Assembly (NCBI GenBank): GCA_002294285.1
Contig: DBFL01000094.1
Span: forward strand, 483 to 38,196
Direction of reading: 5' to 3'
DNA: 37,714 bases
Origin: Candidatus Neomicrothrix sp. UBA881
Lineage (GTDB): Bacteria; Actinomycetota; Acidimicrobiia; Acidimicrobiales; MedAcidi-G1
Made by a program: the position numbers and the translations under genes. Each line of letters opens with the position of its first letter. The stretch's first letter is position 1. The notes under the pieces were generated by a model, which was not told where the DNA came from, did not search any database, and saw nothing but the letters and a program-made list of their open reading frames with translations. Below, in pieces: positions 1-9,319 of the stretch.

Positions 1-523
1 TTAAAACATCGTCAACTGTCTTACCTGAGTAAGGACCGTCGCCGACATCCCAACCCCAAGACCCCAGAGTTCCTCCAACACCAATGTTTTCAAAACCTTT
101 TAAAACTGAACCTGGGTGAGCTACAGTGCCTGCTTCAACTGTGAAAGTGATACCATTTCGAGCGCTCTCAGCTAATACAAGGGTTGCTGAAATTTCATCG
201 TCCTCTGATGTGTGGGCTTCATGAATGGGTATGGCCCAATCAAAAATGGCTTCATTATCTGTGATCGAATCGGGAATGCACGATCGTATAAGCCGGTCAC
301 CTGTTAAGTGTTGGTGTGCGTTTATCAATCCGGGGATTAACAGGAAGTTGTCACCACCATGTATGACTAAATCAGAGTTCTTCTTTAAGATTTCTTCTCT
401 TTTACCTATTTCCGCTATTCGTCCGTTGGTAACTTTTATGGCAGCGTCATTAATGATTTGACGTTCTTCATTCATGGTAAGAACAGTCTTTCCCACAACC
501 AGACTTGATTTATTTTTTGTCAC
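1..523 (-). CDS. Amidohydrolase, N-terminal part (cut by window edge)
   Basis: This reading frame stays open to the left edge, so only about the first 174 residues are visible. The N-terminus shows a short beta-sandwich segment (SLVVGKTVLTMNEER, then NGRIAEIG) followed by PGLINAHQHLTGDRLIR, which carries the His-x-His metal-ligand pair (H70, H72) of the amidohydrolase superfamily. The arrangement resembles the AtzA/TrzN/guanine deaminase-like branch, whose members hydrolyse amine or halide substituents on heterocycles, but the substrate cannot be told. I chose the GTG at 521-523 over the ATG at 473-475 because the residues between them fit the usual family N-terminus. The gene is divergent from the Rieske oxygenase at 582 and may belong to the same catabolic block. 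The remaining metal ligands lie outside the window. Confidence 0.75.
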   Translation of the reverse strand, partial: MTKNKSSLVVGKTVLTMNEERQIINDAAIKVTNGRIAEIGKREEILKKNSDLVIHGGDNFLLIPGLINAHQHLTGDRLIRSCIPDSITDNEAIFDWAIPIHEAHTSEDDEISATLVLAESARNGITFTVEAGTVAHPGSVLKGFENIGVGGTLGSWGWDVGDGPYSGKTVDDVL

Positions 524-551
524 AACAACAGAATAGATGCAGTAAGTTTGA

Positions 552-565
552 CTTATGCAAATAAG
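552..565. promoter_or_regulatory. Small inverted repeat in the divergent amidohydrolase/Rieske gap
   Basis: The 58-base gap between the two divergent genes holds the inverted repeat CTTAT-GCAA-ATAAG. A TTGACT hexamer (548-553) overlaps its left arm, but no good -10 element sits at the right distance. It could be an operator, but the short AT-rich arms make chance a real alternative. Confidence 0.25.
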
Positions 566-581
566 AAAAAAAGCTTGTTAA

Positions 582-1583
582 ATGTCTAATACCTTCGACT
601 GTTTGACTGAAAATACAGGCCTTTTAGACCATTGGTATGCCGTAGGCCTTTCCAAGGAAATCAATGAAAAACCTCTTTCGGTAGAGCTATTGAATTCTAG
701 ATATGTGATCTGGAGAGACAGAAAAGGATCCTTGGTGGCTGCTAATGAATTATGCCCCCACCGCCAAATGCCTCTAACGGAAGGCCATATAGATGAAGGC
801 TGCTTGAGATGCCCTTATCATGGATGGCTTTTCGGGGAAAGAGGGGAGTGTAAAGAGATACCCTCCGCGTCTCCAGATTTACCTATTCCATCTAAGGCAC
901 ACCTCAACACTTTCAACACCATTGAAAAGTATGGATTGGTTTGGCTTTCGCCTGGTGAGCCCAAGAAACCCTTATTTGAAATCGAGCAGGATAACGACTC
1001 TTCATTTAGGAGAATTAATACTGAAATGCAGAGTTGGGAAGTAGCTGCAACCAGAATGGTTGACAATTTTTTAGATATCACTCATTTTCCTTTTGTTCAC
1101 ACTGGAACCTTTGGTTCCGTTCAGGAGAAAGAATCACCGCCTATCGAATTGAAAGAACTCGATGAATATTTTTTCGGTTATGAATATGACGTTTTAGCTG
1201 CAAACCCAGGTGAAGCAAAGTCTGTCTCGGGATCTGAAGAGGAAGTAGTTTCAAGATTTATGACTACAGGATTCAATCTGCCTTTTAATGTTAGGAGTAC
1301 CATTGCCTATGAGTCTGGCCTGCAACACATAATCTTGTTGCTTTCCACGCCTATAGATGAAATAAATTCGTATTTCACTTTCGTGGTATGGCGAAATGAT
1401 GATTTTCAGATCCCTGAAGAAGAAATTATCTCTTTTGATCGAGCGATTGGGGAGGAAGACAGGGTAATGCTCGAACGACTAAGTGGGTCAATGCCTCTCG
1501 GTCAAACCGATCTGGCAAATGTAAAAGCAGATAAAGCCTCTGTTGAATGGAAGAGACAATTTGTGGAGATGATCAACGGATAG
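582..1583 (+). CDS. Rieske non-haem iron oxygenase (VanA/phenylpropionate-dioxygenase-like), paralogue 1
   Basis: The 333-residue protein begins with a Rieske [2Fe-2S] domain (about residues 17-120) with C58-P-H60 and C77-PY-H80. The catalytic half contains MVDNFLDITHFPFVHTGTFG, in which D161 or D165, H168 and H173 fit the mononuclear iron site. This is the single-component-size oxygenase type (vanillate demethylase, methylxanthine demethylase, related hydroxylases), which takes electrons from a separate reductase. It is clearly paralogous to the protein at 5317-6321: both share CLRCPYHGWLFG, the RINTEMQ stretch and the D-x2-H iron region. Its 3' end converges on the 2-oxoglutarate dioxygenase gene with an 8-base gap. 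Substrate is unknown; oxidative demethylation or ring hydroxylation are both possible. Confidence 0.9.
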   Translation: MSNTFDCLTENTGLLDHWYAVGLSKEINEKPLSVELLNSRYVIWRDRKGSLVAANELCPHRQMPLTEGHIDEGCLRCPYHGWLFGERGECKEIPSASPDLPIPSKAHLNTFNTIEKYGLVWLSPGEPKKPLFEIEQDNDSSFRRINTEMQSWEVAATRMVDNFLDITHFPFVHTGTFGSVQEKESPPIELKELDEYFFGYEYDVLAANPGEAKSVSGSEEEVVSRFMTTGFNLPFNVRSTIAYESGLQHIILLLSTPIDEINSYFTFVVWRNDDFQIPEEEIISFDRAIGEEDRVMLERLSGSMPLGQTDLANVKADKASVEWKRQFVEMING

Positions 1584-1601
1584 CTCGTATTCTACTCGAG
1601 C
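1583..1601. terminator. Short hairpin spanning two convergent stop codons
   Basis: GCTCG (1583-1587) and CGAGC (1597-1601) form a five-base-pair GC-rich stem with a nine-base loop. It covers the last base of the Rieske stop codon and the stop of the opposite gene. No T-run follows on either strand, so it would be a weak or bidirectional terminator at best. Confidence 0.35.
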
Positions 1602-2575
1602 ATAGACATCGACTTCGCCGTAATCCATTCGCCCGAAATTACTGGTTCGTAAGAAGTTTCTTTTTTTTCAGTAAGAGTTGTTGGGATAGTTTTTATCTCA
1701 GCTGTATAAGTGGGCTGGAAAAAAAATGGAATAGAGATCCGATCCCGTTTGCGATGAGAAGGATCATCCGGAAGAACGACACGGTGGAGGGTCGATGTCC
1801 ACCTGTCGTTTGTCCATCTTGCCATTAGGTCACCTATGTTAATGACATAGCCATCTTCTACAAGATCCACGTCAACCCACTGGTCATTGACTGTAATTTG
1901 AAGACCTGGTATTTGCTCAGGTGCAACAATCGTGAAAGCGCCATAGTCTGTATGCTCTCCGCGTCTGAGCTGACCAGAAGGCACTTCACCATCGACGGGG
2001 GGATACCAGTTGGACATTAAAAGCGAAGTGGGGTTATCGAACTTGTCTTTAAACCAATTCTCTTCGAGATTAAGAGCAATTGCCATAAGTTTTAGAATCT
2101 CTGCACAGAGATTCTCCATTTTGGCAAAATAAGCTTCATAAGCAGGTCTTAACTCGACAGGCTCTTCTGGCCAGAGGTTTTCACAGAAAACAGCTTCTGC
2201 TCCAGGTTGTTGAAGCTTGGAACGTAAAACTGGATCATCAAATCTACTTACATTAAAAGACTCACAAAGGTCAGGAGGGGTTTCTATTTCAAGGGTAGAA
2301 GCAAGAGCAGTTGTGTCAAGCCCCAAGTATCCACGGAAATGATTGGGTCCTGGCGGGGCTACTTTACTTTTCTCAGATACAGGTAGATGAAAGAAATCCC
2401 GTGACGAATTAATAACATCCTCCAAGAGTTTTGGATCAACCCCATGGCCTACTGCTATAAAAAAACCTGTCGATCTGCATGCAGAGTCAATACGTTTTGC
2501 TATCTCAAGACGATCTGAATTAGAGCCTTCAAATGCAGGGCTTAAATCGATAGTTGGTGCAAATTCCATATTCAC
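1592..2575 (-). CDS. 2-oxoglutarate/Fe(II)-dependent dioxygenase (isopenicillin N synthase family)
   Basis: The 327-residue protein has the DIOX_N-type beginning (PTIDLSPAF, then STGFFIAVGHGV near residues 35-46) and the 2OG-FeII oxygenase domain in its second half. The iron triad is H208-T-D210 and H264, and the co-substrate-binding R279-x-S281 is present, so it should be catalytically competent. Family members hydroxylate, demethylate or desaturate small molecules using oxygen and 2-oxoglutarate. The start is the GTG at 2573-2575, with GGAG four bases upstream, and it overlaps the stop of the SnoaL-like gene (GTGA). This indicates translational coupling as the last gene of a four-gene minus-strand operon. 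Substrate is not predictable. Confidence 0.9.
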   Translation of the reverse strand: MNMEFAPTIDLSPAFEGSNSDRLEIAKRIDSACRSTGFFIAVGHGVDPKLLEDVINSSRDFFHLPVSEKSKVAPPGPNHFRGYLGLDTTALASTLEIETPPDLCESFNVSRFDDPVLRSKLQQPGAEAVFCENLWPEEPVELRPAYEAYFAKMENLCAEILKLMAIALNLEENWFKDKFDNPTSLLMSNWYPPVDGEVPSGQLRRGEHTDYGAFTIVAPEQIPGLQITVNDQWVDVDLVEDGYVINIGDLMARWTNDRWTSTLHRVVLPDDPSHRKRDRISIPFFFQPTYTAEIKTIPTTLTEKKETSYEPVISGEWITAKSMSMLE

Positions 2576-2985
2576 TTTTCTCCGAATCCATCTGACATGC
2601 CCATCTGTTTCAAAAAAGTAAGACTGTCAAAGTAGTCAACCCTTCGTTTGATCAAACCCTCTGAGATATGAAATAAGAAAACGCCTTTGATTTCTATGGG
2701 GGTATTATCGACATCAGCTCTCATCATGTAAGAGGTAAATACTCGCTCACCATCAGCAACCGCCTCCTCAAGCTCATAGCTGATACCTTGAAACTTTTCC
2801 AAGAAACCGTTTAAGTTATTTCTGTATGTAGTCCGACCTGTGCATGGTTCACCCAAAGCGCTTGTATGGATATTTTCAAAATCATCATCCACGTGTTGAG
2901 CTATGAAATCAGCATCACCTTTAGAGAATGAGCTTAAGTATGATTTGGCAACTTCTATAGGTTCCATTCTCGTATCATTTTTCAC
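2572..2985 (-). CDS. SnoaL-like/NTF2-fold protein
   Basis: A 137-residue protein with the cone-shaped NTF2/SnoaL pattern: an N-terminal helix (VAKSYLSSFSKGDADFIAQHV), a central DFENIHTSALGEPCTGR segment, and C-terminal strands ending FLFHISEGLIKRRVDYFDS. Such proteins act as isomerases, dehydratases or hydrolases on polar metabolites, or have no known activity. The start shown is a GTG overlapping the end of the upstream VOC gene; an ATG seven codons in (2965-2967) would leave a short gap instead. Neither has a strong ribosome-binding site. It sits between a VOC gene and the 2OG dioxygenase, so a role in the same pathway is inferred from position only. Confidence 0.75.
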   Translation of the reverse strand: MKNDTRMEPIEVAKSYLSSFSKGDADFIAQHVDDDFENIHTSALGEPCTGRTTYRNNLNGFLEKFQGISYELEEAVADGERVFTSYMMRADVDNTPIEIKGVFLFHISEGLIKRRVDYFDSLTFLKQMGMSDGFGEK

Positions 2986-3487
2986 TAATTAATTCTTGAA
3001 AAGTTGAGTAGACACCTTGGTCAAAAGAAAACTCGAGAGTGTTCCCATCAGGGTCTTTGGCCATAAACACCCAACCGATAGGTGGAGGCAACTCGGTTAA
3101 GGGCATTGCAACAGAACCTGTCGCAGAGAGTTTCTTTTCAAGTTCTTGAAGGGCTTCTAAGCTAGGCAACTCTATTCCTAGATGAGCGAAAGGCCCAAGA
3201 ACAGTATGAGGGGCACCTTCGAAAGGGTCCTTCCCTGGGAAAAATTGGGATACAACTAGTAGAAATGGGCTAGCAGGATTATCGGCATGCCCCAACCAAG
3301 CGGCATAGCCCATTTCATCCTCACGTCTTGTGATCAAAGACATTGGGGTATTGGTGGTGTACCACTCAATCGTCGCGTTGATATCGTTCACGCGCAATGC
3401 CACATGGGTCCAACGCGGCTCAGGTGGATGAACATCGTATGTAGTTTCGCCTGTCATGTCTTCACTCTTATTCAATTGTCCAGCCAT
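2975..3487 (-). CDS. VOC (glyoxalase/extradiol dioxygenase fold) protein, second in operon
   Basis: A 170-residue single-chain VOC protein. The first module starts with RWTHVALRVNDINATIEWY and the second with FAHLGIELPSLEAL, ending in DPDGNTLEFSFD. His near residue 27, the His in FAHLGIE and the Glu of NTLEFSF are placed like VOC metal ligands. The family covers glyoxalase I, methylmalonyl-CoA epimerase, extradiol dioxygenases and fosfomycin-resistance-like enzymes; this one is too short for a classical two-domain extradiol dioxygenase. The ATG at 3487 overlaps the preceding gene by 20 bases and has no clear ribosome-binding site. The ATG at 3455-3457 lies just past the upstream stop codon and is a reasonable alternative start. 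Confidence 0.8.
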   Translation of the reverse strand: MAGQLNKSEDMTGETTYDVHPPEPRWTHVALRVNDINATIEWYTTNTPMSLITRREDEMGYAAWLGHADNPASPFLLVVSQFFPGKDPFEGAPHTVLGPFAHLGIELPSLEALQELEKKLSATGSVAMPLTELPPPIGWVFMAKDPDGNTLEFSFDQGVYSTFQELISEK

Positions 3488-3995
3488 CTGGGATTAATGC
3501 TTCTCCAATCACCTGATGCGTGTCCTCATCAACTTCAACGCCTTCGAGATGCTGCCAGAGATTTATCTGATTACCCCAAGGGTCTATAAACGATGCATTA
3601 GCACCACCAAATTCAGTCCAAAAGTGATTTCTCCACAAAATGGTAGCTCCGAGTTCTTCCGCTGCGTCTAAGATCCGATCAAAAGAGTCATCATCACTGA
3701 CCATAATCCATGCTCTGATAGATCTACCTCCAGAACTCAACTCCGTAGGTTCAGAAGGCTCAGGGTTCGGATGTGGTCGAGCGTTAGCTGCATTGTAGAT
3801 ACCCATATGCAGATTGCCTGTGGGTCCCTGACTTCCATCATCCAATTTAAAGTTTTGACCAGGTACGATTCGGTTAAAAATACCGGGTATACGTGTTTCT
3901 ATTTCCCAATTAAAAACTTTGCTATAGAAATCAGTTGCAGCCTCAACATCATCGGTAGGAAAGTCAACGAAAACTAGAATATTAGGGTATGTCAT
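3468..3995 (-). CDS. VOC family protein, first in operon
   Basis: The start is set at the ATG 3993-3995 because AAGGAG lies four bases upstream; a nine-codon longer frame exists but lacks this signal. The 175-residue product opens with NILVFVDFPTDDVEAATDFY, a typical VOC first strand and helix, and ends its second module with FIDPWGNQINLWQH, which resembles the conserved DPxGNxxEL/W closing motif. The middle carries a proline-rich loop (RPHPNPEPSEPTE) and IRAWIMVSDDD. It is the promoter-proximal gene of the minus-strand operon and is divergent from the large Rieske oxygenase. Function could be isomerase, lyase or dioxygenase chemistry; the substrate is unknown. Confidence 0.82.
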   Translation of the reverse strand: MTYPNILVFVDFPTDDVEAATDFYSKVFNWEIETRIPGIFNRIVPGQNFKLDDGSQGPTGNLHMGIYNAANARPHPNPEPSEPTELSSGGRSIRAWIMVSDDDSFDRILDAAEELGATILWRNHFWTEFGGANASFIDPWGNQINLWQHLEGVEVDEDTHQVIGEALIPDGWTIE

Positions 3996-4034
3996 GGTTC
4001 TCCTTAATCGAACGGAATCCACAGAATACCAAAA

Positions 4035-4051
4035 GGTCTGATTGTCTGACC
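4035..4051. promoter_or_regulatory. Operator-like 17-bp dyad between divergent catabolic operons
   Basis: GGTCTGATTGTCTGACC reads as GGTC-x-GA-xxxxx-TC... partly symmetrical about position 4043: the outer GGTC/GACC arms match exactly and inner GA/TC pairs match. It lies in the 100-base gap between the VOC operon (-) and the large Rieske gene (+). This is where a GntR- or TetR-type repressor would control both directions. No regulator gene is visible in the window. Confidence 0.4.
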
Positions 4052-4095
4052 AATTGTCTTTAAGGTATATTTCATTATTAACAGAGGGGGGTTGT

Positions 4096-5316
4096 GTGGA
4101 AAGTCCAATTGAGCTTGAAGAGTTGCTTAAGTCGCGTGGAACTTATCGAGATGCGATCGGATTACCTCCAAAGGTATATAGCGATCCCGATTTTTTTGTT
4201 TTCGAACGTGAAGCCGTATTCGCGTCCGAATGGCTTTGCGTGGGACGGGAAGAACAGGTTCAGGAAGTAGGAGATTATTTTTCTGCAACACCAGCTGGAG
4301 AACCAATAATTGTTGTAAGAAATTCAGAATCTGAGATACGAGCAATGTCATCAGTTTGTCCTCACAGAGGTATGTGCGTTACAGCAGACCTTGATGGAAT
4401 AGATGATGAGAATATGCTTGAGCCCACCAAATTTCTTTCAGGCAACGTGAGATACTTTCGATGCCCCTACCATTGGTGGGTATTTAATTTAGAGGGCCAG
4501 CTCACAGGAGCTCCTGAAATGAAAGAGACGGACTGTTTCAAAGCAGAAGATACAAGTCTTGAAAATATCGCTTTGGAGATCTGGAACGGCTTTATATTTG
4601 TAAATTTTGACATCAATGCAGATCCTTTAGGCCCGAGTTTGGGAAAACTTGAAAAGGCAGTAAGGAATTACGATCTTTCCTCACTCAAAACCGTAGACCC
4701 TGCAGTAATTCCTGATGTCCCATTTAATTGGAAGATCATGATAGAGAATTTTATGGAGATGTACCATAACAGCCGTCTCCACAAAGGTATCCATGATTGG
4801 GCACCCTCAGCAGGAGCTCCTGGGACACCATCCTCATATTCAGATTTTGAAGAAGGCGATGGAGCAATGTTTGGATTTAATCCGTCCTTGGAAATGGATG
4901 GAGGCTTTAATCCAACTTACAAAGCCCTTTTTCCGCCTCTTCCAAACTTAACTGATGAAGAGAGACAAAGAGTCGTATTCGCTTTCGTTCCCCCAACTCT
5001 TTTAATTGGAATGCAATCAGATTCTGCATTTTGGTTCACAGTTAATCCAACCAGTCCCGAAACACACGAACTCAGTATGGCCTACTTATTCCCAGAAGAA
5101 GTTCTTGAAATCCCCTTATTTGATGAATTGCTTGAAGCCGCAATAAGGGGAGTTGGCTATTTTAATCGTCAAGATATACCAACAAATATTGCTACTCACT
5201 TGGGATTGAGTTCACGTTTTGCAAACCGAGCCCACTACTCCTGGCAAGAGGCCGTTATACCGCAATTTAATTCTTGGCTTGTTAACCGCTATGAGAAGCA
5301 AATGGAAGATAAATAG
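4096..5316 (+). CDS. Rieske ring-hydroxylating oxygenase alpha-subunit-like protein with extended Rieske loop
   Basis: The start is placed at GTG 4096 because GAGGGGGG lies directly upstream; an 18-codon longer TTG frame has no such signal. The 406-residue protein has a Rieske domain with C88-P-H90 and C123-PY-H126. The distance between the two ligand pairs is 32 residues, about 15 more than the usual 17 or so, and HWW replaces the common HGW after the second pair. The catalytic domain has NWKIMIENFMEMYHNSRLH, which matches the E-N-x2-E-x-YH-x4-H iron-site pattern of alpha subunits and choline-monooxygenase-like enzymes. It abuts the third Rieske gene with no intervening base, so the two are co-transcribed. 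No beta subunit is present. Substrate is unknown. Confidence 0.88.
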   Translation: MESPIELEELLKSRGTYRDAIGLPPKVYSDPDFFVFEREAVFASEWLCVGREEQVQEVGDYFSATPAGEPIIVVRNSESEIRAMSSVCPHRGMCVTADLDGIDDENMLEPTKFLSGNVRYFRCPYHWWVFNLEGQLTGAPEMKETDCFKAEDTSLENIALEIWNGFIFVNFDINADPLGPSLGKLEKAVRNYDLSSLKTVDPAVIPDVPFNWKIMIENFMEMYHNSRLHKGIHDWAPSAGAPGTPSSYSDFEEGDGAMFGFNPSLEMDGGFNPTYKALFPPLPNLTDEERQRVVFAFVPPTLLIGMQSDSAFWFTVNPTSPETHELSMAYLFPEEVLEIPLFDELLEAAIRGVGYFNRQDIPTNIATHLGLSSRFANRAHYSWQEAVIPQFNSWLVNRYEKQMEDK

Positions 5317-6321
5317 ATGTCTGATTCATATCAAATCCTGCAAAATTACTGGCATGCAGTAGCTACCAGTAAGTCTTTAGAATCTGACATCCTTTCTGTG
5401 AAACTTTTAGAAAAGGACTATGTTCTGTGGCGCACCCCAGATGGTTCAATCGGAGCGTCTCTAGATATCTGCTCACACAGGCAGGCTCCTTTGTCAAAAG
5501 GACATCTAGAAGAAGGTTGTTTAAGATGCCCCTATCACGGCTGGTTATTTGGAGATGAAGGGCAATGTTTAGAAATCCCTTCAGCTCAAAAAAATTTACC
5601 CATTCCTCCTAAAGCCCATTTGGAATTTATACAAACTCAAGAAAAATATGGTTTGATTTGGATGTGTCCAGGAGACCCTCATTCTCCAATACCTGAGGTA
5701 GTAGCAGAGAATGACGATTCCTTCACACGCATTAATACAGAAATGCAGATCTGGAACGTTGACAGCACGCGAATGATTGACAACATGCTCGACATTTCTC
5801 ATTTCCCATATACACATAGGGGCACTTTTGGAATCGAGCAAGAAACGGTTGTGCCAAAAATTAATCTAGAACAACTAGATGAGACTTTCTTTGGTTATGG
5901 CTACGAAGTGAAGATAAACAATGTTGGCGCTACAAAAGTTATGTCTGGAGGGGGAGATGATGTCCTAAAGCTTTTCATGACTACAGGATTTGCTTTACCT
6001 TTCTCCGTCCTGAGCACAATGAGCTATGAGACAGGTGTAGAACAAAAACTATTTATGACCGCAGCTCCGATACAGGAAGGCAAGTCCGCATACACTTTTG
6101 TACTTTGGCGTAACGACGACCTGAACGCGTTGGTGGCTCCAAACCGAACAATTGCTGATGAAGTACTTGAATTGGAACTAGCCGTAGTTTTGGAAGACCA
6201 AATGATGTTAGAAAAACTAAAAGGTCGACTTCCACTAGAACACGGTGCATTAGTGGATGTTCAAGCTGATAAGCCTTCATTGGAGTGGCGGAGACGATAT
6301 AAAGAACTAATCTCTAGCTAG
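5317..6321 (+). CDS. Rieske non-haem iron oxygenase, paralogue 2
   Basis: The ATG directly follows the TAG of the preceding Rieske gene. The 334-residue product has cluster ligands C52-S-H54 and C71-PY-H74 and an iron-site segment MIDNMLDISHFPYTH with D155 or D159, H162 and H167. It aligns along its full length with the protein at 582-1583, including CLRCPYHGWLFG, PPKAHL, EKYGL and the FMTTGF and YETG stretches near residues 215-240, so one arose by duplication of the other. Paired Rieske monooxygenases of this size are known to demethylate different positions of one substrate, as in the methylxanthine N-demethylases. Whether that applies here is only an inference. Electron-transfer partners are not encoded nearby. 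Confidence 0.9.
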   Translation: MSDSYQILQNYWHAVATSKSLESDILSVKLLEKDYVLWRTPDGSIGASLDICSHRQAPLSKGHLEEGCLRCPYHGWLFGDEGQCLEIPSAQKNLPIPPKAHLEFIQTQEKYGLIWMCPGDPHSPIPEVVAENDDSFTRINTEMQIWNVDSTRMIDNMLDISHFPYTHRGTFGIEQETVVPKINLEQLDETFFGYGYEVKINNVGATKVMSGGGDDVLKLFMTTGFALPFSVLSTMSYETGVEQKLFMTAAPIQEGKSAYTFVLWRNDDLNALVAPNRTIADEVLELELAVVLEDQMMLEKLKGRLPLEHGALVDVQADKPSLEWRRRYKELISS

Positions 6322-6465: not shown

Positions 6466-6735
6466 ATGTCTAGTAGTACGCCTGTTAAGTCTGAGATGAT
6501 TTCTGAGCACCAGCTGCATGAGAGCGATACTGGTTCTCCAGAAGTCCAGATTGCTTTGATGAGTGGAAAAATTAACCACCTTACTGAGCATTTGAAAGTT
6601 CATAAAAAGGACCATCACAGTAGAAGAGGTTTGTTGATGCTGGTCGGCCGAAGGCGGAGAATGCTTGATTATCTAGAAAAAAATGATGTTGAGCGTTACA
6701 GGTCGATTATCACAAAGTTAGGTTTACGTCGTTAA
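6466..6735 (+). CDS. rpsO: 30S ribosomal protein S15
   Basis: The 89-residue length and sequence match S15: the conserved [36 protein letters not shown] core is present in pieces, followed by [12 protein letters not shown] and the terminal ITKLGLRR. S15 binds the 16S rRNA three-way junction in the central domain and nucleates platform assembly. AGAGG lies just ahead of the ATG. As in many bacteria it is followed by pnp, and its mRNA has a structured leader that is a plausible site of autoregulation. Confidence 0.98.
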
Positions 6736-6751
6736 GGCGTTTGATTAAAAA

Positions 6752-6832
6752 GTTCCTAAAATGGTATTTGATTAAGGAACAAGTAAAAAAAGACTCTAGC
6801 GATGAGCAGCTTTTAGAAATTAGTTTTCATCG
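6752..6832 (+). promoter_or_regulatory. rpsO-pnp intergenic hairpins
   Basis: The 160-base gap contains two inverted repeats: GTTCCT/AGGAAC (6752-6757 with 6775-6780) and CGATGA/TCATCG (6800-6805 with 6827-6832). Neither has a terminator-like T-run. In other bacteria the pnp leader carries a processed stem-loop used by PNPase to control its own message, so processing sites are a possible role here. Confidence 0.35.
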
Positions 6833-6870
6833 ACTGGTGTCGCCCTGATCGGAAATGTTTCGAACAGGTG

Positions 6871-6890
6871 AAGAAGAGAAAAGAAGAGAA
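6871..6890 (+). repeat. Perfect tandem 10-mer in the pnp ribosome-binding region
   Basis: AAGAAGAGAA occurs twice head to tail immediately before the pnp start codon (ATG at 6896). Both copies contain a Shine-Dalgarno-like AGAAGAG core. It may offer alternative ribosome-binding positions or be a simple slippage product. Confidence 0.5.
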
Positions 6891-6895
6891 TAATA

Positions 6896-9319
6896 ATGAA
6901 TGAACCAATTTCCGTATCCCATACATTTTCAGGGACAGAAAAGACAATTACTTTCGGTACAGGACGTCTGGCCGGATTAGCAGGAGGAGCGGTTTTGTCT
7001 CAACTAGGCAATTCAACCGTTCTGGTGACCGCAACCGGTGCAAAATCAGCTCGAGCAGGTGCTGACTTTTTCCCCTTGACAGTTGATATTGAAGAAAGAA
7101 TGTATGCCGCTGGGAAGATACCAGGATCTTTTTTCAGGCGTGAGGGTCGAGCGTCAGAATCGGCAATTTTAACTTGTCGACTGATTGACAGACCTTTAAG
7201 ACCTATGTTTCCAGAAGGTTTCCGCAATGAGGTACACATTGTCGGTACCGTAATGGGAGCTGATATGGAGAACCCTCATGATGTATTGGCCTTGAATGGC
7301 GCATCAGCAGCTCTTATGATTTCTGAAATTCCTTTTGATGGTCCTGTGGGGGCAGTTCGAATTGCTTGGGCGTCTTCAGGGGAATGGATTCCGCATCCAA
7401 CTTATGAAGAGGCTGCCGATTCAGCATTTGAAATGGTTGTGGCTGGACGTCTGCTGGAAGATGGAGATGTTGCAATCATGATGGTAGAAGCCGGAGGGAC
7501 AGAGGCAACTTGTGATGTTTATGACGCAGGTGCACCTTTTGTAGATGAATCTGTACTTGCCGACGGTCTTGAATTTTCCAAGCAATTCATAAAGGAAGTA
7601 ATTGAACTGCAACAAAAACTGGTTGAAGCAGTAGGTAATTCTGAAGTAATGGAATACGAAGCTTTTTCCGATTACACCAAAGAAATTTTCAATGCTGTCG
7701 AAACTGCAGGGTCGGAGAGAATTGCAGCCACTCAAACTATCGTTGACAAATCAGAAAGACAAAATGCTGAAGCGGAACTTAAAGAGGCAATCAAGAGCGA
7801 AATAATCACTGATTTCGAAGAAGTGGAAGGCGCTGAAGAACAGATTTCCGCAGCAATCAGATCAGTAACTAAGGAAACTGTCAGAGATCGGATAGTTAAT
7901 GAAGGTGTCCGAATCGACGGACGTGGAGTATCCGACATCAGAGCGCTTACATCAGATGTAGGAGTTATTCCCACGGCTCATGGTTCAGGTCTCTTCCAGA
8001 GAGGTGAAACTCAAGTTCTGAACATAACAACCTTGGGAACTGGTCGGATGGATCAGATGATTGATGGAATTGATCCGATTGAAAGAAAAAGGTACATGCA
8101 TCATTACAATTTTCCGCCTTTTTCAACCGGAGAAACTGGTTTCATGAGAGGACCGAAGCGGAGAGAAATAGGGCATGGCGCTCTCGCTGAGAGGGCCCTC
8201 TTCCCTGTAGTACCGAGTTTCGAAGAGTTCCCTTACACACTTCGCTTGGTCTCCGAAGTTCTTTCTTCAAATGGGTCAACCTCAATGGGCTCTGTTTGTT
8301 CATCCAGTTTGTCAATGATGGACGCCGGTGTTCCTATCAAGGCTCCAGTAGCCGGTATAGCTATGGGATTGATTTATAAGGACGGCAAATATGTAACACT
8401 TACAGACATTTTGGGGGCCGAAGACGCTTTTGGTGACATGGATTTCAAAGTTGCTGGCACTTCTGAGTTTGTTACAGCTCTGCAACTAGATACCAAAATC
8501 GATGGTATTCCCGCAGATGTCCTCGCTGACGCATTGAACCAAGCTAAAGAGGCTCGATTGAAGATATTAGAAGTTATGACTTCAGCCATACCCGAGCCAC
8601 GTGAAGATGTAGGTGAAAACGCTCCAAAAATTCTCAGTTTTGAAATACCTGTAGAAAAAATTGGTGAAGTAATTGGACCAAAAGGAAAGATGATCAACAC
8701 CATTCAGGCTGAAACCGGAGCTGAGATTGCTGTTGATGATGACGGCATGTCTGGAATCGTGTCTATAGCATCACCTGATAGAGAGAAAGTCACTGAAGCA
8801 GAGAGACAAATAATGTTAATTGTCGACCCTCCTTCAGCAAATGTTGGAGAAATTTACGAGGGAAGAGTAGTAAACATAACTAAGTTCGGAGCCTTTGTGA
8901 ACATACTCCCTGGACGGGATGGATTGGTCCACATTTCTAAACTGGGTGGAGGAAAACGCATCGACAAAGTTGAAGACGTTCTTGAACTTGGCGACGCCAT
9001 TGAAGTTGAGGTTGAAGATATAGACCCGAATGGGAAAATTTCTTTACGTCCTATTTTGGACGGTGAAGAGAGTAGCAACCACGAGGAAACTTCATCAGAT
9101 ACTTCTGAAGAGGAAGAAAATATCGATATGAATGATGATGAATCCTTTGACGAAGAAGACTACAACCAAAAGGAAACTGACTCTGGGTCTAACGAGACAG
9201 AAAGCAAAGTCAAGGCATCAGCCTCTTTTGAAGACGCTTTTCAAGCTGAACTAGAGGCTGTTCACGGTGACTTGGGTAAAAGTTCGTCTAGGAGAAGCGG
9301 TAACCGCAAAAGAAGATAG
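6896..9319 (+). CDS. pnp: Polyribonucleotide nucleotidyltransferase (PNPase) with acidic C-terminal tail
   Basis: PNPase degrades RNA 3' to 5' by phosphorolysis and can add tails in reverse. The 807-residue chain shows RNase PH domain 1 (FFRREGRASE, LIDRPLRPMFPEGF), an alpha-helical linker, RNase PH domain 2 from about residue 340 (GETQVLN, then GDMDFKVAGT near 515 with catalytic acidic residues), a KH domain with GPKGKM near 593, and an S1 domain at about 650-720 (KFGAFVNILPGRDGLVHISKL). Beyond about residue 725 it carries a long Asp/Glu/Ser-rich tail and a basic end (RRSGNRKRR), which is longer than in many PNPases. The gene follows rpsO in the classical order. Confidence 0.97.
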   Translation: MNEPISVSHTFSGTEKTITFGTGRLAGLAGGAVLSQLGNSTVLVTATGAKSARAGADFFPLTVDIEERMYAAGKIPGSFFRREGRASESAILTCRLIDRPLRPMFPEGFRNEVHIVGTVMGADMENPHDVLALNGASAALMISEIPFDGPVGAVRIAWASSGEWIPHPTYEEAADSAFEMVVAGRLLEDGDVAIMMVEAGGTEATCDVYDAGAPFVDESVLADGLEFSKQFIKEVIELQQKLVEAVGNSEVMEYEAFSDYTKEIFNAVETAGSERIAATQTIVDKSERQNAEAELKEAIKSEIITDFEEVEGAEEQISAAIRSVTKETVRDRIVNEGVRIDGRGVSDIRALTSDVGVIPTAHGSGLFQRGETQVLNITTLGTGRMDQMIDGIDPIERKRYMHHYNFPPFSTGETGFMRGPKRREIGHGALAERALFPVVPSFEEFPYTLRLVSEVLSSNGSTSMGSVCSSSLSMMDAGVPIKAPVAGIAMGLIYKDGKYVTLTDILGAEDAFGDMDFKVAGTSEFVTALQLDTKIDGIPADVLADALNQAKEARLKILEVMTSAIPEPREDVGENAPKILSFEIPVEKIGEVIGPKGKMINTIQAETGAEIAVDDDGMSGIVSIASPDREKVTEAERQIMLIVDPPSANVGEIYEGRVVNITKFGAFVNILPGRDGLVHISKLGGGKRIDKVEDVLELGDAIEVEVEDIDPNGKISLRPILDGEESSNHEETSSDTSEEEENIDMNDDESFDEEDYNQKETDSGSNETESKVKASASFEDAFQAELEAVHGDLGKSSSRRSGNRKRR

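Follow-up and report, generated by a model that had tools for sequence, protein, structure and literature searches.

A recurring gene cluster of Acidimicrobiales with three Rieske oxygenases, probably for catabolic uptake and possibly for the use of methylated N-heterocycles

The closest described counterparts of the genes considered here are the saxitoxin tailoring oxygenases GxtA and SxtT, the NdmA/NdmB caffeine and methylxanthine system of Pseudomonas putida CBB5, the Group V Rieske oxygenases (CntA, GbcA and Stc2), the guanine-, S-adenosylhomocysteine- and 5'-deoxyadenosine-deaminase-like amidohydrolases (with AtzA and TrzN), the PnrA/BMP importers (PnrA, BmpD, RfuA and AtzT), and the N-methylhydantoinase/caprolactamase/acetophenone carboxylase family. 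Here we analyse a stretch of 37,714 nucleotides (the window) from Candidatus Neomicrothrix sp. UBA881, a metagenome-assembled genome (MAG) of 1.79 Mb that is 80% complete (GCA_002294285.1, contig DBFL01000094.1, positions 483 to 38,196). Its left end carries eight oxygenase or hydrolase genes which, as judged by comparative sequence analysis, belong together as the right-hand portion of a catabolic cluster that recurs in other genomes. The cluster very probably serves catabolic uptake. We propose, with a probability of about 0.5, that its substrate is a single class of methylated N-heterocycle, of purine-, pyrimidine- or pterin/flavin-like kind, which it takes up and breaks down; a methylated purine- or pyrimidine-like compound is, with comparable confidence, the most likely substrate class.

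This reading is favoured by the BMP/PnrA-type importer in the same cluster, by the proximity of one Rieske oxygenase to GxtA/SxtT and NdmA, by that of the 2-oxoglutarate (2OG) enzyme to thymine dioxygenase, and by a block of HyuA, HyuB and CoA ligase genes in the same genome. The families are known; their combination was not found described in titles or abstract beginnings among the matches listed, preprints and most subscription journals lying outside the scope of that search.

Genes, recurrence and position

All eight genes of the original prediction were found at the places and in the families that it gave, with rpsO immediately after the last of them, as follows.

2..523, minus strand: AHY1, amidohydrolase; 174 N-terminal residues out of about 460, cut by the left window edge
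524..581: divergent gap between AHY1 and RO1, 58 bases; possible control region, judged from the sequence
582..1583, plus strand: RO1, Rieske oxygenase of VanA/NdmA type (Rieske and VanA_C domains); C58/H60/C77/H80, D165 and H168/H173/D293 conserved
1592..2575, minus strand: 2OG-Fe(II) dioxygenase (DIOX_N and 2OG-FeII_Oxy domains); H208/D210/H264 conserved; best PDB match thymine dioxygenase
2572..2985, minus strand: SnoaL-like protein, by family match
2975..3487, minus strand: VOC1, single-domain VOC protein; H28/H102/E152, metal-site pattern
3468..4022, minus strand: VOC2, VOC fold without the H-H-E pattern of VOC1, by family match
4023..4095: divergent gap between VOC2 and ROa, about 73 bases if ROa starts at GTG 4096
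4096..5316, plus strand: ROa, Rieske oxygenase (Ring_hydroxyl_A) with a bridging Glu, E239 when numbered on the 424-residue frame from TTG 4042
5317..6321, plus strand: RO2, second VanA/NdmA-type Rieske oxygenase, a clade-separated paralogue of RO1
6466..9319, plus strand: rpsO and pnp, right border of the cluster, outside the pathway

The minus-strand operon does overlap from gene to gene, by 4, 11 and 20 bases. Comparison with the frame of a sister genome makes GTG 4096 the more likely start of ROa than TTG 4042. Both predicted divergent gaps exist, but their role in control gained nothing from a consensus promoter scan, in which promoter- and terminator-like sites did not rise above shuffled sequence. 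The AHY1 fragment has no Pfam hit but does match an NCBIfam model, and the full-length protein of a sister genome, G002 (L040:7298-8680, on contig C17), contains PF01979.

The eight genes had been taken as the whole unit, which they are not, as the cluster continues beyond the window edge. The window's contig (C7) begins inside AHY1, with a run of N at 160-482, and contig C66 of the same genome holds a methyltransferase gene (MT, cut), a second amidohydrolase (AHY2), a luciferase-like gene (LLM), TauE and the end of AHY1. The last 24 bases of C66 are identical to the first 24 of C7, and C66 thus continues the cluster past the left edge. In G002, whose RO1 is 99% identical to that of the window, the series runs BMP (a fused tandem substrate-binding protein, SBP), ATPase, two permeases, QOR (a quinone-oxidoreductase-like enzyme), MT, AHY2, LLM, TauE, AHY1, RO1, 2OG, SnoaL, VOC1, VOC2, ROa, RO2, rpsO and pnp. 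Another G002 contig (C39, L238) has a second rpsO-pnp with QOR, MT, AHY2, TauE, VOC1 and VOC2; with two rpsO-pnp places and different cluster versions, G002 may mix two strains. Contig C63 of the window's genome carries VOC3, GntR, cupin, HyuA, HyuB, CoA ligase and a further Rieske gene, ROaB, beside ribF, ribA and truB (the last three named by eye).

A relative of RO1 (E 1e-30 or better) occurs in 38 of the 149 genomes searched, the window's own included, and a match of at least 50% identity in 27, two of them (G109 and G034) clearly partial. A profile search of representative genomes with AHY2, a selecting gene outside the window, gave 151 relatives, 80 of which were counted. Most of their titles place them in Acidimicrobiia or a group within it, or give no more than Actinomycetota, and a few read just 'bacterium'; they include sponge symbionts and the isolate Ilumatobacter nonamiensis, whose locus L172 holds BMP, QOR, MT, AHY2, AHY1 and RO1. 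One record titled Bifidobacterium breve (L110, CALPPJ020000050.1) has an Acidimicrobiales-like copy of the cluster (76% identity in AHY2), and its label is probably wrong. At orthologue-like identity, at least one window family is present in 68 of the 80 loci, none in 12 and all eight in 4; control sequence of eight segments (155 kb) plus 28 kb of the window gave nothing at the same thresholds. The families were found as follows: MT 74, QOR 65, AHY1 48, PERM2 46, BMP 36, VOC2 34, ROa 33, LLM 28, RO1 22, VOC1 22, SnoaL 20, RO2 12 and 2OG 7. For the 37 loci with 8 kb on both sides the corresponding numbers are MT 36, QOR 33, AHY1 23, BMP 21, RO1 8 and 2OG 2. RO2 accompanies ROaA in 10 loci, and every 2OG gene (7/7) stands with RO2. 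These counts point to a core of MT, QOR and AHY2 with AHY1 and the importer, to which RO2, ROaA and 2OG are an added module. A mutual exclusion of RO2/ROaA and the ligase block, suggested by the absence of ROaA together with the ligase from all loci (0/80), was rejected, as the window's genome has both on different contigs.

A check proposed with the original prediction was whether the genes are unlinked in relatives: they recur together in most loci. Exceptions are L062, L065 and L068, three of the 26 loci whose RO1 match is at least 50%, which showed no member of the other seven families. The HyuA block (E 1e-150) is present in 12 of 61 genomes, all 12 with genes of the window set (for G034, six of these on one piece of a contig). 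Four genomes (G002, G003, G004 and G064) have RO1-side genes without the block, and the remaining 45 have no RO1 match of at least 50% among the matches listed; these co-occurrence counts are raw and uncorrected for the relatedness of the genomes. Plasmids of Streptomyces NBC_00841 and Embleya NBC_00896 also carry related sets, whose genes, compared one by one, are 24-72% identical. When annotated plasmid relatives were sought, the best places fell in records without usable annotation, and Shinella pShin-03, where an AHY homologue of 33% identity stands among different genes, was discarded.

In the window's taxonomic family, a ribF-like gene stands directly beside VOC3 in 10 of the 11 loci with the HyuA block (own and ten others), the contig ending there in the eleventh. 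Four loci (L215, L216, L217 and L221) have two ribF-like genes; of the two, the copy next to VOC3 resembles the ribF of the window's genome more closely and may belong to the island. On the other side, rpsO neighbours VOC2 or RO2 in the family loci that reach it. In all nine readable family members without the RO1 cluster (G009, G010, G011, G014, G015, G016, G018, G021 and G022; the G001 contig was too short), rpsO lies 2.7-4.7 kb from the end of ribF and nothing like this island stands between the two, so that the island sits, most simply, between ribF and rpsO as far as contig comparison can tell. In three of these relatives (G010, G011 and G016) rpsO has VOC1-like genes (38-41%) as neighbours. 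In G021 (L234) a CoA ligase gene (59%), possibly a remnant, stands by itself between ribF and ribA-rpsO. In the single-contig genome G053, HyuA, HyuB, ligase, ROa and BMP are contiguous but far from rpsO-pnp (about 3.24-3.27 Mb vs 1.51 Mb).

Enzymes and importer

RO1 and RO2 have the CxH...CxxH motif, bridging Asp and 2-His-1-carboxylate site of Rieske oxygenases. C58, H60, C77 and H80 are conserved in all 65 rows with a letter there, and D165 (the bridging Asp), H168, H173 and D293 (the iron site) in 66/66, the rows being partly dependent since several genomes appear twice under different names. The two proteins are about 50% identical, which upholds their predicted paralogy, but a recent tandem duplication is ruled out by the tree. 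RO2 has a clade of its own, which is fully supported, draws rows from several families and is nested in a larger group that also holds the RO1 rows of the window's family, and the duplication is, on this sequence evidence, not recent; the tree covers 52 of the 66 rows, chosen by length and distinctness, with three outgroup rows repeating three of them, and leaves 15 forks open. RO2 of G004 (L046:8612-10186) lies in several broken or duplicated pieces beside rpsO.

The nearest solved relatives of RO1, in sequence and in fold, are GxtA and SxtT, tied by Z score with NdmA; the fold match to dicamba monooxygenase stands at the same level, and the NdmA/NdmB fold group lies at 22-26% identity. Unlike GxtA and SxtT, which are only about 25% identical to it, RO1 is surrounded by genes that look degradative. 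Compared with the NdmA/NdmB system, the cluster adds ROa, 2OG, VOC and amidohydrolase genes and a BMP-type importer. The Ndm caffeine pathway has a dedicated Rieske reductase, NdmD. A search of the 80%-complete MAG for the NAD_binding_1 (PF00175) reductase domain gave no match, and six Fer2 matches are present.

AHY1 and AHY2 match the deaminase-like amidohydrolases as a family and retain all their metal ligands (HxH, H, H and D) in 53/53 AHY1 and 85/85 AHY2 distinct rows, each of at least 400 aligned residues and at least 42% (AHY1) or 60% (AHY2) identity. Deaminases of this superfamily carry a glutamate three residues after the beta-5 His (HxxE). The original prediction called the amidohydrolase deaminase-like, and here the two part from that model: Pro replaces the Glu in every one of the same rows (138/138), which weakens a plain deaminase reading. 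A looser count, over two references and the 142 of 165 family members that passed a length filter, gave Pro in 142 and Glu in two rows that drop out under the stricter identity limits. HxxE is kept in all three amidohydrolase paralogues looked at on contig C56 of the same genome. The first 20,000 positions of C56 (L191) form a second heterocycle-type island, with three xanthine dehydrogenase (XDH)-type matches, at least three HxxE amidohydrolases, two luciferase-like genes and, named by eye, XdhC-like and allantoate-amidohydrolase-like genes. An XDH-type purine route inside the cluster was rejected, the XDH-type genes lying on another contig. AHY1 of G019 (L053:3718-5084) is split over two open frames.

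The 2OG enzyme keeps H208, D210, H264 and R279 in 15/15 rows; R279 we take to be the 2OG-binding Arg. With the HxD...H triad and this Arg it would belong with the thymine-dioxygenase-like enzymes. VOC1 has H28, H102 and E152 in 46/46 rows.

The importer of the cluster resembles the PnrA/BMP type in the fold of its SBP, its BPD_transp_2 permeases and its ABC ATPase. The SBP scores above the Pfam Bmp cut-off of 24.1 bits and its closest folds include RfuA (riboflavin) and AtzT (the atrazine periplasmic binding protein), although identity is about 15% and, unlike these, the G002 protein is a fusion of two BMP domains. The single-domain SBP, a form present in L149 and L155, had no hit among PDB sequences at E 1e-10, while the fold search was clear. 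In the part of PMC7093131 available, binding of the BMP/PnrA type is described with two stacking Phe and a nucleoside ligand. Fused binding proteins are common in the lineage (L074:1662-3827, L096:2-1330 and L218:14548-17565), those of G006 and G017 have, by eye, other upstream or partner domains, and the BMP-type domain has several invariant cysteines. The HyuA/HyuB block of the window's genome and its relatives resembles the N-methylhydantoinase/caprolactamase/acetophenone carboxylase family; it differs from the caprolactamase CapAB in score, the G147 copies reaching 450 and 186 bits against an equivalog cut-off of 1000, a curated rule by which they are a different enzyme.

Substrates considered

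The original prediction envisaged a sequential route that would demethylate a methylated heterocycle or aromatic compound or open its ring; of these the added evidence favours the demethylation and ring opening of a heterocycle, the substrate itself still being a proposal. The class of compound, each reaction and their order are what we infer beyond gene content, recurrence, the place of the two halves, families and active-site residues. The PnrA/BMP-type ABC importer would take up the heterocycle. RO1, RO2 and the 2OG dioxygenase could then oxidise methyl or ring carbons by oxidative demethylation or hydroxylation, and ROa, with its bridging glutamate, may attack N-methyl groups of an amine- or ammonium-like kind. 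Hydrolysis of ring amide or amidine bonds would fall to the two amidohydrolases that lack the glutamate. Finally, VOC1, the oxidoreductase-like enzymes, the lactamase-type HyuA/HyuB pair and the CoA ligase might complete ring opening and deliver the products to central metabolism.

Several observations weigh against this. The substrate hints come from nearest relatives at about 15-30% identity; NCBIfam cut-offs were reached by no window protein and, among the neighbour proteins tested, by urease alone, and urease alpha itself gave only partial matches of at most 27 bits in the window's family. The second match of the 2OG enzyme, an ethylene/succinate-forming enzyme, is close (142 bits). RO1, VOC1 and SnoaL reach the thresholds in a minority of the 80 AHY2 loci, many of them cut by contig ends, and the core may work without these three; the methyltransferase gene, present in nearly all, does not fit plain degradation, and GxtA and SxtT are tailoring enzymes. 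A search of the 80%-complete MAG for BMP gave no match, the importer being known from sisters. As for the two halves, no contig of the family spans the island from ribF to rpsO, the contigs breaking between ROaB and BMP; in G017 a further fused binding protein and a permease of ABC type come after ROaB, and G002 lacks the HyuA block and has other genes beyond BMP.

That the cluster breaks down a betaine or another quaternary-ammonium compound similar to carnitine, stachydrine or trigonelline, with ROa cleaving or demethylating the N-methyl group and the ligase activating the acid, is doubtful in our view. It draws on ROa, whose active-site positions are conserved in 48 rows (some of them one genome entered twice) and whose best PDB match is the carnitine monooxygenase CntA. 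The bridging residue is Glu in the 20/20 rows at least 47% identical to the window protein, as in Group V enzymes such as CntA, where it is E205 in the part of PMC7948474 available. This reading draws also on the CoA ligase, whose top score is to crotonobetaine/carnitine-CoA ligase, below its cut-off (284 of 651 bits), and on Acidimicrobiales bins listed in a sponge 'carnitine' guild in the accessible text of PMC5649159. The HyuA-linked ROaB, however, has a bridging Asp (28/28 rows of no more than 43% identity, including one distant stray). Counting positions from the bridging residue and not by alignment, Tyr203 of CntA corresponds to Phe237 (47/48 ROa rows), and its Cys206/Cys209 pair, a type present in some Group V members, to Met240 and Asn243 in the window protein. 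Moreover, the GbcA model gives ROa 99 bits against an equivalog cut-off of 670, the importer is of BMP type, and two metal amidohydrolases would have no obvious use.

A substrate of another ring type (flavin/lumichrome, triazine or aromatic), imported through an SBP of this kind and opened by VOC1 as a ring-cleaving dioxygenase, is unlikely. RfuA and AtzT among the closest SBP folds, atrazine chlorohydrolase among the PDB matches of AHY2, the invariant H-H-E of VOC1 and the luciferase-like gene in 28/80 loci speak for it, but no tested member reaches a family cut-off for such pathways, and RO1 is nearer GxtA and NdmA than phthalate-type oxygenases, though dicamba and guaiacol demethylases are close.

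That methyltransferase, SnoaL and Rieske enzymes build or tailor a small heterocyclic natural product is very unlikely. The methyltransferase in 74/80 loci and the proximity of RO1 to tailoring enzymes agree with it, and SnoaL-like proteins do occur in polyketide clusters. The SBP-dependent importer, HyuA/HyuB, CoA ligase and GntR regulator nevertheless look catabolic, and no scaffold-building enzyme was recognised among the families identified, which include few of the unlabelled neighbours.

A pile-up of unrelated accessory genes at a hot spot, compatible with the VOC1-like genes beside rpsO in three cluster-less relatives, the lone ligase of G021 and the solitary RO1 in three loci, is largely contradicted and hardly tenable, as the families recur together in other taxonomic families, in G053 far from rpsO-pnp and, as related versions, on two Streptomycetaceae plasmids.

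Use of methylated heterocycles in the sea

Import and degradation of a methylated N-heterocycle thus being the reading we prefer, a bolder form of it can be offered tentatively, as something that may be so but is less likely than not. It holds the cluster to be an undescribed marine salvage route for methylated nucleobase-like heterocycles, distributed among the Acidimicrobiales and related to plasmid sets of soil Streptomycetaceae, in which a BMP importer, three Rieske oxygenases, a thymine-dioxygenase-like enzyme and a new amidohydrolase subfamily without the deaminase glutamate, which would open the ring, act together.

We know of no cultured member of the window's family, whose habitat, according to the available part of PMC10205998, extends from deep-sea water up to the lower photic zone. 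In a sponge metagenome, hyuA/hyuB are enriched across phyla and group I of the 'carnitine' guild includes bin134 (MPNQ), as far as the accessible sections of PMC5649159 go. The bin134 MAG (L131, MPNQ01000015.1) carries the ligase-ROa-BMP-AHY2 set of the cluster, carnitine-CoA-ligase-like gene included, and part of the sponge hyuA/'carnitine' signal may therefore be the pathway of this cluster.

The pathway can be tested, since related versions of the set occur in two Streptomycetaceae strains and in the cultured Ilumatobacter nonamiensis. The recurring uptake-and-degradation island may give its carriers access to what is perhaps an overlooked source of dissolved organic nitrogen.

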